Below, piece by piece: positions 6,489 through 33,488 of a stretch of 41,222 nucleotides of DNA (positions are counted from its first letter, which is position 1; the number at the start of each line of letters is the position of its first letter). The stretch spans positions 1-41,222 of the forward strand of contig JAFUTK010000012.1 in assembly GCA_017471405.1 (NCBI GenBank), given 5' to 3'. The stretch is from Ruminococcus sp. (GTDB taxonomy: Bacteria > Bacillota > Clostridia > Oscillospirales > Ruminococcaceae). The notes under the pieces are model-generated. The model was not told the origin of the DNA. It saw nothing but the letters and a program-made list of their open reading frames with translations, and made no database searches. Both the position numbers and the translations under genes were made by a program.

Positions 6489-7160
6489 TTGTATAAGATA
6501 TTCATAACCGAGGACGACAGGGCGCTGGCGGAGGCACTGTGCCGCACGCTCTCTGCCTGGGGGTATGAGGTGAAGGCCGCGGAGCGGTTTGAAAATATAG
6601 TTCCCGAGTTCAGAGAGTTCGAGCCCCATCTGGTGCTGATGGACGTCTCCCTGCCCTTCTGCGACGGCTTTCACTGGTGCGCCGAGATAAGGAAGATATC
6701 CAAGGTGCCTATTGTGTTCCTCTCCTCCGCGGCGGACGATATGAACATAGTCATGGCTATGAACATGGGCGGCGACGATTTCATCGCCAAGCCGGTGGAC
6801 CCTAAGGTGCTGACCGCGAAGATAGGCGCAGTGCTGCGCCGCTGCTATGATATGGCGGAGGTCACGTCCCTCTCCCATAAGGGGGTCACTCTCGACCTTG
6901 CCGGCACTGCTGTTTCATATCAGGAGAAAACCGCCGAGCTCACCAAAAACGAGCTGAAAATTCTGGAGCTGCTGATGGAGAACAAGGGCAAGACCGTCAG
7001 CCGGGACGCTTTGATGGTAAAGCTCTGGCAGATGGACTGCTACGTTGAGGAGAACACCCTGACGGTGAACATCACCCGCCTGCGCAGAAAGCTTTCTGAG
7101 CTGGGCATTACCGACTTCATAAAGACCCGCGTGGGAATGGGCTACATCATCGAGGAGTGA
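6489..7160 (+). CDS. Response regulator, OmpR/PhoB type, of a Bce-like module
   Basis: Cytoplasmic transcription factor of 223 residues. The receiver domain (1-115) has the acidic pair ED at 8-9, phospho-acceptor Asp52 in LMDVSLPFCDG, and Lys101 in DDFIAKPVDP. A winged-helix domain (about 130-223) ends in NTLTVNITRLRRKL and TRVGMGYII, as in BceR-like regulators. The TTG start at 6489 has AGGAG eight bases upstream. An in-frame GTG at 6480 overlaps the ribosome site and is rejected. The kinase gene follows within 6 bp. The neighbouring ABC transporter genes are the likely targets, through the direct repeat at 8162-8181. I know of Bce-type modules as responding to cell-wall-active peptides; the ligand here is unknown. 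Confidence 0.92.
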   Translation: MYKIFITEDDRALAEALCRTLSAWGYEVKAAERFENIVPEFREFEPHLVLMDVSLPFCDGFHWCAEIRKISKVPIVFLSSAADDMNIVMAMNMGGDDFIAKPVDPKVLTAKIGAVLRRCYDMAEVTSLSHKGVTLDLAGTAVSYQEKTAELTKNELKILELLMENKGKTVSRDALMVKLWQMDCYVEENTLTVNITRLRRKLSELGITDFIKTRVGMGYIIEE

Positions 7161-7165
7161 GGGGA

Positions 7166-8149
7166 ATGAAAGTCACAGGTGCATTTATAAAGCAGCATAT
7201 CCTACAGGCGGTGTCCTTCCTGCTGTTTACGGGAGTATTTACTCTGGTGCTGACACTCTACGGCTGCGAGACCGAGGCTGTCATCTATGCGGCAGTCATC
7301 TGCGGAGCCATAGCCCTTGCAGCGGCGGCAGTGAGCTTTATCCGCTTTCGCCGGAGATATTCGGCGCTCTCGCTCCTGCTTGACGACAGCCTGCTCCTTG
7401 ACGCCCCCTTGCCTGAGGCAGTCACCCCGGAGACGGAGCTTTACAGCGAGCTGGTGACCCGTCTGCGGGACAGGTGCCGGGAGCTCTCCAATGAGACCCT
7501 GCGGGACAGGGAGGAAATGCTGGATTATTTCACCCTTTGGGTGCATCAGATAAAAATACCCATTGCGGTAATGAGAATGACCCTGGACGCCGAGGACAGC
7601 AGCGAGCATCGAGAGCTCTCAGCCGAGCTGTTCCGCATTGAGCAGTACGCCGAGCTGGTGCTCTGCTATTTCCGGCTGGACGGCCAATCGGGAGACCTTG
7701 TGGCAAGGCGCACCGAGCTTGACCCGGTCATCAGAGGGGCGATACGCAAATATGCTCCGATGTTCATTCGCCGCCGCATAAGGCTCTGCTATGAGGGTAC
7801 CGATGAAATGGCTGTGACGGATGAGAAGTGGCTGGGCTTCATCATAGAGCAGCTGCTCTCAAATGCCGTCAAATACACCGAGGGCGGCAGCGTTACCGTA
7901 GCCGTCCGGGACAACATTATTACCGTCAGCGACACCGGCATAGGCATAGCCCCGGAGGATATCCCGAGGCTCTTCGAGCGGGGCTACACCGGCATAAACG
8001 GCAGAGCCGACCGCCGCGCCACCGGGCTGGGGCTCTACCTTGTCAAGAAGGCCTGCGGCAAGCTGGGGATAGAAATAGAGATAAAAAGCGCCCCCGGCAG
8101 GGGAACGGAGGTAACACTGACCCTCCCCCGGGAGCTGGCGGCGGAATGA
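7166..8149 (+). CDS. Sensor histidine kinase, intramembrane-sensing BceS type
   Basis: Membrane kinase of 327 residues. Two N-terminal helices (about 11-31 and 39-60) are joined by only a few residues, so there is no extracellular sensor domain. This is the hallmark of BceS-like kinases, which sense through a partner ABC permease. The H-box is TLWVHQIKIPIAV with phospho-acceptor His127. N-box (LLSNAVKYT), G1 (DTGIGIAPED), F and G2 (TGLGLYLVKK) boxes are all intact. The ATG at 7166 has GGAG eight to nine bases upstream; a GTG at 7157 overlapping the regulator's stop is possible but less well placed. Co-transcribed with the regulator; its transporter partner is at 8264-11042. Confidence 0.92.
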   Translation: MKVTGAFIKQHILQAVSFLLFTGVFTLVLTLYGCETEAVIYAAVICGAIALAAAAVSFIRFRRRYSALSLLLDDSLLLDAPLPEAVTPETELYSELVTRLRDRCRELSNETLRDREEMLDYFTLWVHQIKIPIAVMRMTLDAEDSSEHRELSAELFRIEQYAELVLCYFRLDGQSGDLVARRTELDPVIRGAIRKYAPMFIRRRIRLCYEGTDEMAVTDEKWLGFIIEQLLSNAVKYTEGGSVTVAVRDNIITVSDTGIGIAPEDIPRLFERGYTGINGRADRRATGLGLYLVKKACGKLGIEIEIKSAPGRGTEVTLTLPRELAAE

Positions 8150-31674: not shown

Positions 31675-31890
31675 AAGAAAAATAACTGCCTTGTGCGAGC
31701 AAGTATGGTTTATATGATCCAACACATTAATTAAGGGAGTCCTGTCTCCGGAAGCGGACTGCAGACCTCCCGACCCGGACCGCCTCGGCTGCTTCGGGCA
31801 ACGGACGAAGGGAGCGAGAACCCATGGGGGGACACCCACCTGCTTTGAAGCGGGTTTTATTCACCATACGACGGCAAGGCGGTATTTTTG
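31675..31890 (+). ncRNA. ssrS: Probable 6S RNA
   Basis: 6S RNA binds sigma-A polymerase by imitating an open promoter. This stretch of about 215 nt lacks a gene but has a promoter. The ends pair: ACTGCCTTG near 31684 with CAAGGCGGT near 31875, and GTATGG (31703-31708) with CCATAC (31864-31869), giving a long rod. The 3' part (CACCCACCTGCTTTGAAG, then ACGACGGCAAGGCGG and a T tract) is of the kind I remember from Firmicute 6S RNAs. The middle is GC-rich with opposed complementary tracts, which could frame the central bubble. I could not run a covariance search. The 3' end is taken at the T-rich stretch after GGCGG. Confidence 0.7.
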
Positions 31891-31952: not shown

Positions 31953-32279
31953 TCAGGAGAAGACACCGTCTTCATCGTCTTCTTCATCATCGTCGAAGTC
32001 GAACATTTCCTCGATGCGCTTCATAAAGATTTCACCGACACGCTCTTCCTCTTCCTCGTCCTCGATGGAGACCATCATTTCCTCGTCACCCTCAAACTCG
32101 CTCTTGAGGATAACTACCTCGCCGGAATCCTCCAGCTGCTCATTGGGGTCCTCATAGTAAGGAGTCAGAGCAAAATACTTTTCTCCTTCAAACTCCATTA
32201 CGTCAAGCAGCTCAAAGGTCTGCTCGTTGCCTTCCTCGTCTTCAATGGTGTAAAGATCGGGTGCGTATTCCTGGCTCAT
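31953..32279 (-). CDS. DUF1292 family acidic protein
   Basis: 108 residues, extremely acidic. The N-terminal part (LYTIEDEEGNEQTFELLDVMEFEGEKYFALTPYYED) is the DUF1292 signature, known from YrzB-like proteins of Firmicutes. The function is unknown. A C-terminal run of Asp and Glu (DFDDDEEDDEDG) follows a short helix. There is no signal peptide or membrane helix. It is usually found near yrrK/ruvX and alaS, but here it stands alone with its own promoter and terminator. AAGGAGG lies upstream of the ATG, and a small hairpin sits in the roughly 55-nt leader. Confidence 0.9.
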   Translation of the reverse strand: MSQEYAPDLYTIEDEEGNEQTFELLDVMEFEGEKYFALTPYYEDPNEQLEDSGEVVILKSEFEGDEEMMVSIEDEEEEERVGEIFMKRIEEMFDFDDDEEDDEDGVFS

Positions 32280-32427: not shown

Positions 32428-32456
32428 TTGACAATTCACAAAAAGTGTGATATAGT
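32428..32456 (+). promoter_or_regulatory. Sigma-A promoter of the large candidate RNA
   Basis: Perfect TTGACA (32428-32433), 17-bp spacer, TATAGT (32451-32456). There is no gene downstream on this strand until well after the terminator at 33416. Confidence 0.85.
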
Positions 32457-32462
32457 ATATTC

Positions 32463-33443
32463 AAGGAAACAGAAAGAGCAGCCGAACGTATCAGAGATCC
32501 GGCAGACGGAGGGATCGGCAGCAACCGGGAGTATGGTCAACTGGCGCTTGGGTTCCCTTAATATATAAGGTCAGGAACGGGTTGCGGGAGGTTCCCGCAG
32601 GAGATGTTCAATCAGACATGAAAGGAGTCGAGTCCCATGGGCGCAATAGAGATCACACAGTTCGGCCGAGAGGCTCGAGAGATCTTCTGAATGATGAGAA
32701 ACAACTCAGGTGTATAGACTGATAATCTCAAACCGATAGGGTTAAAATATAATAAGACTTTCGAGCTTCGAGGCAAGCGGACACGCAAATGACAATTCAA
32801 TCGTATGATAAGGATGTGATTCTTATGAGGATCTTTATCAGTGGACTGAATATCATTTAGAATGGAGTGTTTCCAATGCACAGTCGGAGCTTTTTTGATT
32901 AGCATAATTTTCAGAGAGAGTGAGTCCGATGAGAAGTTAAATTGACTGCTTATACCAAAAGATATCTTTCCTGTAGGAGTGATGCGTTATGAAAATGTGC
33001 ATCATCAGACGGCTTAAAATGTAAGTGACAGGGGTGAGTCCAAAGGTTTATTCAGCTTGAACCCTCTGGGTTCGTTTAAATGGATCTGATAAAGCAATTT
33101 TCTAAGGAGTGGTGCAATATGATTATGTTGAATTGCACGAAGCGCTTGATCATTTAACAGATTGGGGTGAGTCCAAAGGTTACTTTAGCTTGATCCGGAA
33201 TTTGGGCGCGTGAGGCGCTAATAATCTGAAAGGTAATAAGTCCAATGGCTTGATATGATTTTTACCGGCTTAATTCTATAGAGTTTGGAGTGAGTCCACC
33301 CGAAAGTTAAGTCTTAGCTGCGACAGAGATGTTATTCCGGCAGCACACCTAAATATCATTATTGGAGTGAAAACCGATGTACTGAGCAGTTAGTACAATT
33401 GAATATCGTTTACAGGGAGCAGACGGTTTGCCTGCTCCTTTTT
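32463..33443 (+). ncRNA. Candidate large structured RNA (~980 nt) built from repeated modules, class unknown
   Basis: No plausible protein gene exists here on either strand; the longest frames lack ribosome sites. The stretch has a strong promoter and an intrinsic terminator. Perfect hairpins include TGCGGGA/TCCCGCA (32583-32599), GTTCC..GGAAC with an inner CTTA/TAAG (32552-32578), GCAACC/GGTTGC enclosing it (32521-32526 with 32580-32585), GATAAGGAT with 32831-32839, GAACCC/GGGTTC (33059-33073) and GTACT/AGTAC (33379-33396). A module with GGRGTGAGTCC recurs near 32918, 33031, 33164 and 33287. A second module, GGAGT plus a hairpin with an ATGAnnATGT loop, occurs at 32976-33004 and 33106-33138 with different stems. 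Size suggests comparison with OLE, GOLLD, HEARO and ROOL RNAs, but I cannot match it to any of them. Confidence 0.65.
33416..33443 (+). terminator. Terminator of the large candidate RNA
   Basis: GGAGCAG (33416-33422) pairs with CTGCTCC (33432-33438) and TTTTTA follows. Confidence 0.88.
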
Positions 33444-33453
33444 AGTTGTGTAA

Positions 33454-33488
33454 AATAAACAGCGGGAGTAAGGCTCCCGCTGTTTATT
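33454..33488. terminator. Terminator of the feo operon, possibly bidirectional
   Basis: A perfect 15-bp stem (33454-33468 with 33474-33488) around a five-base loop. On the minus strand it begins at the stop codon of the small Cys-rich gene and ends in a T-rich tail. Confidence 0.85.

Follow-up and report, generated by a model that had tools for sequence, protein, structure and literature searches.

A conserved RNA of Ruminococcus and its relatives that probably carries an array of translated mini-ORFs

6S RNA mimics an open promoter for RNA polymerase, the phage lambda bar minigenes are short ORFs of the AUG-X-stop type, and RNAIII and SgrS each combine one ORF with base-pairing target regions. 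An RNA of about 980 nt, which we describe here from a 41,222-nt stretch of DNA of Ruminococcus sp. (the window), resembles each of them in part. The likeness to 6S RNA is an analogy only: both would be stand-alone RNAs that bind a core expression machine by imitating its template, 6S RNA as a promoter mimic and the mini-ORF RNA through the ribosome start sites that it carries. With the dual-function sRNAs RNAIII and SgrS it has structure and small ORFs in one RNA in common, but it bears a tandem ORF array. OLE, ROOL, GOLLD and HEARO are also long, stand-alone and conserved RNAs with covarying helices; unlike them, the RNA of this locus is without an Rfam match and shows modular start sites, codon conservation and a weak global stability. 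No description of it was found in the literature searched, mostly outside subscription journals, and to our knowledge no RNA class of such construction is known. The minigenes, among them also microcin C mccA, share with it very short ORFs after strong Shine-Dalgarno (SD) sequences, and one study reports that ORFs of 2–8 codons can be translated reiteratively without ribosome release, with in vitro estimates of about 71 rounds for the 7-codon mccA, 30 for A11 and 6 for A15 (PMC6495379). Those minigenes are single ORFs, whereas here 2–15 SD-AUG mini-ORFs (median 8 in 40 RNAs) lie on one dedicated, conserved and partly structured RNA. In S. aureus initiation is shaped by 16S pairing beyond the core anti-SD and near the start codon (PMC13009471), as a property of ordinary mRNAs there and as a repeated building block of one RNA here.

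The transcription unit and its conserved neighbour are arranged as follows:

31953..32279, minus strand: DUF1292 gene, the neighbour, outside the RNA (PF06949, E = 3.2e-16)
32428..32456, plus strand: promoter TTGACA-17-TATAGT with 11/12 consensus matches and an extended -10 (TG preceding the -10 box)
32463..33443, plus strand: the RNA, with a homologue in 14/16 genus genomes (own counted)
33416..33443, plus strand: intrinsic terminator, read in the sequence, with stem 33416-33422/33432-33438 and T-run 33439-33443

Both the consensus promoter and the intrinsic terminator proposed in the initial annotation were thus recovered, and with its own promoter and terminator the RNA is, as had been suggested, a stand-alone transcription unit. 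We infer from the sequence that it is transcribed from this strong promoter. The conserved stretch beyond the promoter extends to CAAGGAA at 32468; the 5' end was placed about 7 nt past the -10 box and the 3' end at the T-run. In 8 genus copies the terminator stem shows compensatory changes. A consensus terminator scan returned no terminator at 33416..33443 (the loop was counted as 9 nt; the scan permits 3–8), and it listed a second strong hairpin at 33454-33488, just past the terminator of the RNA, which is possibly a terminator for convergent genes of the other strand.

The view that the region has no credible gene holds for normal genes, with the longest ORFs being 46 codons on the plus and 97 codons on the minus strand, but it overlooked eight SD-preceded mini-ORFs. 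In six other genus copies the longest minus-strand ORF has 36–92 codons, coming near 97 in L002 only. A hidden long gene was rejected as the longest plus-strand ORF per RNA has only 22–92 codons in 40 RNAs and no long conserved ORF was seen. Unusual stability of the whole RNA was not borne out either: its global fold gives z = -1.73, and 2 of 20 shuffles fold as well or better. A pairing between the start and the end of the RNA (AUAUUCAA with UUGAAUAU) was dropped because the 5' bases differ in other copies.

Searches with the Rfam covariance models, recommended at the outset, gave no gathering-level match for the window RNA or for its counterparts at 18 homologous loci, and at E up to 10 the RNA region yielded only a chance snoRNA match (E = 1.8). 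The suggested divergent membership in OLE, GOLLD, HEARO or ROOL was therefore not upheld, no model of these matching. ARAGORN found no tRNA or tmRNA in the window. The RNA is also not 6S RNA itself, since the RF00013 match (58.2 bits) is a separate gene at 31680-31889, beyond the DUF1292 gene and on the same strand as the RNA, without covariance-model relation to it. A 6S gene lies upstream in 9 of 18 scanned homologous loci, there always on the strand opposite to the mini-ORF RNA; strand and distance of the 6S gene in the window thus differ from those of homologous loci (compared with L003).

To follow the RNA through related genomes we used DNA searches, the promoter and a module model named R1. 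Long DNA matches in the genus have 72–78% identity, and 22 of 297 family genomes contain homologues. The promoter is the best conserved part of the locus, and its exact degenerate pattern was found in 48 stretches of named records, including Ruminococcus albus 8, AR67 and KH2T6, R. bicirculans 80/3 and Ruminococcus sp. FC2018; for R. bicirculans and R. albus a transcript of about 1.3–1.6 kb is predicted. When up to 3 mismatches are allowed, the pattern occurs in 70/297 family genomes and 35/126 genera (reversed-pattern control 0), which is an upper figure because among 30 inspected loci of this kind 23 have a module of class b or c (defined below) within 1.5 kb downstream and 7 have none, the latter being probably chance promoters. 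Among 391 class genomes, the pattern with up to 2 mismatches matched only the own genome and one other (L128), where no b or c module follows within 1.5 kb. The RNA therefore looks confined to the family, with the limit that a diverged promoter would be missed. With no more than 3 base pairs retained, R1 works essentially as a sequence profile; it found one credible locus per genome in the 14 genus genomes with matches, except for G004 (two contigs), and matches outside the locus only at E >= 0.06 in the 16 genus genomes, the first pass scoring 150 of 308–831 candidates per genome. In each of two MAGs a pair of contigs carries the RNA (L058/L070 and L051/L066), the paired copies being identical over the first 300 nt. 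A phage, plasmid or viral origin was rejected, as there was no match in phages, in plasmids or in viral contigs, the last searched by the exact promoter pattern.

After removal of copies with identical first 300 nt, 51 promoter-anchored copies remained, and our counts use the 40 with an assigned terminator; where a script offered several ends, one was picked by eye. Of the 11 excluded copies, eight (several of them at truncated loci) offered no candidate end, L074 and L079 would end far earlier, and L029 did have candidate ends. The 40 still include near-identical copies such as L030/L064 and L033/L091, and the counts are not independent because the copies are related. In L079 (near 6998-7466) and L074 (near 1876-2493) the candidate ends lie near 468 and 617 nt and an ORF1-like ORF is kept; these are possibly much shorter, minimal forms of the RNA. 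The RNA is inherited at one syntenic place: a divergent DUF1292 gene lies directly upstream in 49 of the 51 copies, the other two having just 187 and 204 bp of flank. It is the sole general neighbour found in the 51 loci, and its product is a possible functional partner of the RNA.

Throughout the 40 RNAs three recurring module classes a, b and c can be distinguished, and a typical module combines an extended SD, able to base-pair over much of the 16S 3' tail, with a suitably spaced AUG and a stop one to about 18 codons further on. Class a has a GGAGUG(A/G)UGC-like start, AUG and 8–16 codons, mostly ending in LNI-stop or a close variant; it accounts for 67 ORFs (59 distinct), and its peptides vary between the units of a single RNA. 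Class b has the sequence G(A/G)GUGANUCC without AUG and was counted 91 times by the stricter count (75 distinct). Its GTG follows a class a stop within 25 nt in 62/67 cases, exactly 9 nt behind it in 51/67, and is in frame with the preceding class a ORF in 55/67, as in the window modules at 33031-33041 and 33164-33174, so that stop readthrough or re-initiation could join the two. Class c is (U/A)CC-N-AUG, typically after GAAAGG or GGAGUGAG; a single codon and a stop come next, Met-Ala-stop being the commonest form. The window RNA has eight SD-preceded mini-ORFs of 2–17 codons, which are given here together with the class b modules and hairpins:

32637..32690, plus strand: mini-ORF1 MGAIEITQFGREAREIF-stop, start GAAAGGAGTCGAGTCCC-ATG; 17–18 codons in the 6/7 genus copies matched by script
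32825..32860, plus strand: mini-ORF2 MRIFISGLNII-stop, LNI type, class a-like; start codon and SD inside a predicted hairpin
32876..32902, plus strand: mini-ORF3 MHSRSFFD-stop
32929..32940, plus strand: mini-ORF4 MRS-stop, preceded by GAGTGAGTCCG
32979..33005, plus strand: ORF5 start-codon hairpin; the arm 32979-32987 pairs with 32997-33005, AUG in the loop
32989..33024, plus strand: mini-ORF5 MKMCIIRRLKM-stop, class a
33034..33060, plus strand: class b module GGGGTGAGTCC with a strong complement to the 16S tail and without AUG; the GTG frame reads VSPKVYSA-stop
33112..33138, plus strand: ORF6 start-codon hairpin; GTGCAAT 33112-33118 pairs with ATTGCAC 33132-33138
33119..33157, plus strand: mini-ORF6 MIMLNCTKRLII-stop, class a
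33167..33193, plus strand: class b module, GTG frame VSPKVTLA-stop
33206..33218, plus strand: GCGC hairpin, P3 of the unit; core pairs invariant in the genus, covarying in R. albus-type units
33245..33253, plus strand: mini-ORF7 ATG-GCT-TGA, Met-Ala-stop, class c, start GAAAGGTAATAAGTCCA-ATG
33290..33310, plus strand: class b module, GTG frame VSPPES-stop
33377..33385, plus strand: mini-ORF8 ATG-TAC-TGA, Met-Tyr-stop, class c

The four-copy module noted previously is real as GRGTGAGTCC, which occurs four times in the window and always within the RNA (100 shuffles gave a mean of 0.16 and at most 1), but the longer form GGRGTGAGTCC fits only three of the copies, that at 32918 having A for the first G. 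The longer run described for two copies corresponds to the 45-nt D1 repeat at 33019 and 33152 (80%). In R. albus-type RNAs the a-b-c units, each about 155 nt long, number up to five. In L089 (5107-5486) two nearly identical units lie 223 nt apart; they represent a recent tandem duplication of an a-b-c unit, in agreement with the suggested growth by module duplication.

Strict SD-AUG sites were found 293 times in the 49.7 kb of the 40 RNAs, 3.5x the shuffle mean of 83 (maximum 103 in 20 sets). The ORFs behind them have a median of 3 codons vs 11 in shuffles, and 51% vs 16% have three codons or fewer. Substitutions were found to follow codons in class a only. There, one-base codon differences are synonymous in 2567/4151 cases in frame (62%) vs 441/4018 (11%) and 1007/4089 (25%) in the other frames, and the in-frame value was reached by none of 300 column shuffles (mean 23%, highest 55%). 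At a class a Leu position TTG (18), CTG (16) and CTT (3) interchange, as do AAT (29) and AAC (11) for Asn and ATT (25) and ATC (22) for Ile, and the 59 distinct ORFs end in TGA (38), TAA (14) or TAG (7). For ORF1 the synonymous test gave no support (0.265 vs 0.263 and 0.152). The class b GTG frame is closed within 8 codons in 79% vs 33% and 20% in the other frames, and its synonymous test gave 0.395 vs 0.126 and 0.349.

In class c, 159 of 221 TCC/ACC-N-ATG sites end within 3 codons, and 105 of the 193 such sites having a purine before ATG are AUG-X-stop. Their second codon is Ala in 73/105 cases (GCT 44, GCA 29, other codons 32) and the terminators are TAA (45), TGA (31) and TAG (29). As the second codons vary and all three stops are used, the conserved feature is "start, one codon, stop". 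Ala is enriched at codon 2 of highly expressed genes, with GCU and GCA in E. coli, GCA in B. subtilis and GCU and/or GCA in several bacteria, and GCN codons have been proposed to stabilise dipeptidyl-tRNA (PMC1397820).

The 16S 3' tail GGATCACCTCCTTTC, whose reverse complement is similar to the core motifs, was found in one of the 16 genus genomes (G008); the other 15 gave no exact match, as expected if they are drafts without a complete 16S. Pairing of this tail with the SD of the eight mini-ORF sites has a mean of -13.4 kcal/mol vs -9.2 for 15 window ORF starts, whose true positions are uncertain. In 12 of the 40 RNAs 213 duplex sites with the 16S tail were counted vs 116 expected, a moderate excess, and for L025, one of the 12, a shuffle gave more sites than were observed. 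Class b is a very strong complement without AUG, and its presumed duplex with 16S would contain a bulge at the additional base of GUGANUCC.

The call to look for covariation among homologues was answered by covarying helices. In 19 R. albus-type units the three helices are paired in 100% of 300 cells, and sliding the partner abolishes the pairing. Changes on both sides affect 7/16 pairs, with 37 such cells vs 11.8 in shuffles (0/500 as high), while further pair types, one of five covariation measures, were below shuffles (11 vs 14.5). The covariation sits in P2 (5/6 pairs) and P3 (2/4), and the start-codon hairpin P1 changes on one side only. The class a AUG lies mostly within a hairpin loop, and the start hairpins of 61 distinct sites score 8.89 vs 6.73 with the downstream bases shuffled (maximum 7.33; 200 draws) and vs 8.03 with downstream arms exchanged between sites (maximum 8.39; 200 draws), so that the two arms of a site match each other; a good hairpin is lacking at some sites, e.g. 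in L081 and L082. In the genus alignment compensatory change was seen at 16 of 200 predicted pairs; the ORF6 hairpin has such changes at two pairs (columns 784/810 and 789/805), in one sequence each. The GUGA..CC core of class b is invariant in 33 aligned units, without covariation.

With high probability, the RNA is an array of translated mini-ORFs, and from its evolution we infer that the mini-ORFs are translated. Because of the start modules, the stops and the codon conservation of class a, it is probably not a purely non-coding structured RNA. This departs from the non-coding ornate RNA that had been proposed, the repeats being translation-start modules with very short ORFs, of which one class is conserved at the codon level. 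What the array does is less certain, and we give about even chances to a role in which it would load and hold ribosomes on tiny ORFs, being mRNA-like with a product that hardly matters. Ribosomes would initiate at many mini-ORF sites and terminate almost immediately, the terminated ribosomes would tend to re-engage the same strong SD, and by this repeated re-engagement one RNA would tie up several ribosomes together with initiator tRNAs and initiation factors. Initiation capacity would in this way be held or titrated, or read out via ribosome-controlled folding, and the LNI C-terminus that class a peptides conserve may adjust how ribosomes terminate or pause.

The main rival to ribosome-holding is a polycistronic mRNA for functional micropeptides, in which LNI-ending peptides of about 10–12 residues would be the product (signals, antimicrobials or regulators) and the Met-Ala-stop ORFs coupling devices. 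We consider this rather unlikely, although class a peptides are codon-conserved over many copies and similar peptides occur in more distant loci: most class c mini-ORFs encode 1–3 residues, which is too little information, and the peptides differ from unit to unit within one RNA. Moreover, DUF1292 is the only general neighbour and no downstream gene occurs in more than 9/40 loci, so that no conserved export or processing gene was seen beside the RNA (51 loci upstream, 40 downstream). The same neighbourhood makes an attenuator or leader of a downstream gene very improbable, despite the resemblance of short ORFs before hairpins to leader peptides. The RNA has its own terminator and the conserved neighbour is divergent; a search of the 51 loci with the FeoB protein of the window found it in that locus only, where its gene lies downstream and on the opposite strand; and a co-directional downstream gene common to most copies was not seen, the commonest downstream ORF (9/40 loci) being on the opposite strand, with at least 1 kb of downstream sequence in 27/40.

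A structured RNA that is not translated, in which the GGAGUGANUCC modules are binding sites for an RNA or protein partner and the ORFs are incidental, would account for the covarying P2 and P3, the complete pairing of the aligned cells and the invariant class b core, but not for the synonymous pattern of class a with its three interchanging stop codons or for the excess of SD-AUG sites with short ORFs, and the global fold is unremarkable; we regard it as improbable. Lower still we place a sponge that would act as a start-site decoy for small RNAs or a protein that target mRNA SD sequences: the number of SD-AUG mini-ORFs per RNA would suit it, but a decoy needs neither stop codons nor codon-level conservation. 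A CsrB-like sponge of GGA motifs for CsrA/RsmA has next to no chance. GGA motifs are many in the RNA, but the search for CsrA (PF02599) found it in 3 and did not find it in 7 of 10 RNA-bearing genomes of 93–99% completeness; as a control, the same search was positive in 3/14 named genomes, E. coli and B. subtilis included.

Returning to the ribosome-holding role, we count against it that class b is without AUG, that ORF1 lacks synonymous support, that the excess of 16S duplexes is moderate and that some RNAs have just 2 mini-ORFs. Conservation of the class a peptide means that the product or the nascent chain is of importance, and a pure ribosome trap would have no need of this. We extend only tentatively, at somewhat less than even chances, to a more specific proposal: the RNA may be the first dedicated ribosome-titrating RNA, in which futile initiation on tandem AUG-X-stop and LNI-stop mini-ORFs with 16S-tail-matched starts would set initiation capacity, tuned by start-codon hairpins and nascent LNI peptides. 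It would then serve ribosomes roughly as 6S RNA serves RNA polymerase.

Even with another function, the RNA represents a conserved gene class that normal gene calling, with ORFs of 1–18 codons, and Rfam have missed, and it offers a natural test of whether selection keeps AUG-X-stop ORFs. If the ribosome-holding role is true, translation in gut and rumen Ruminococcus and their relatives would be controlled at a new level, by a dedicated bacterial RNA that engages ribosomes in large numbers through tiny ORFs, in the way that 6S RNA engages RNA polymerase.
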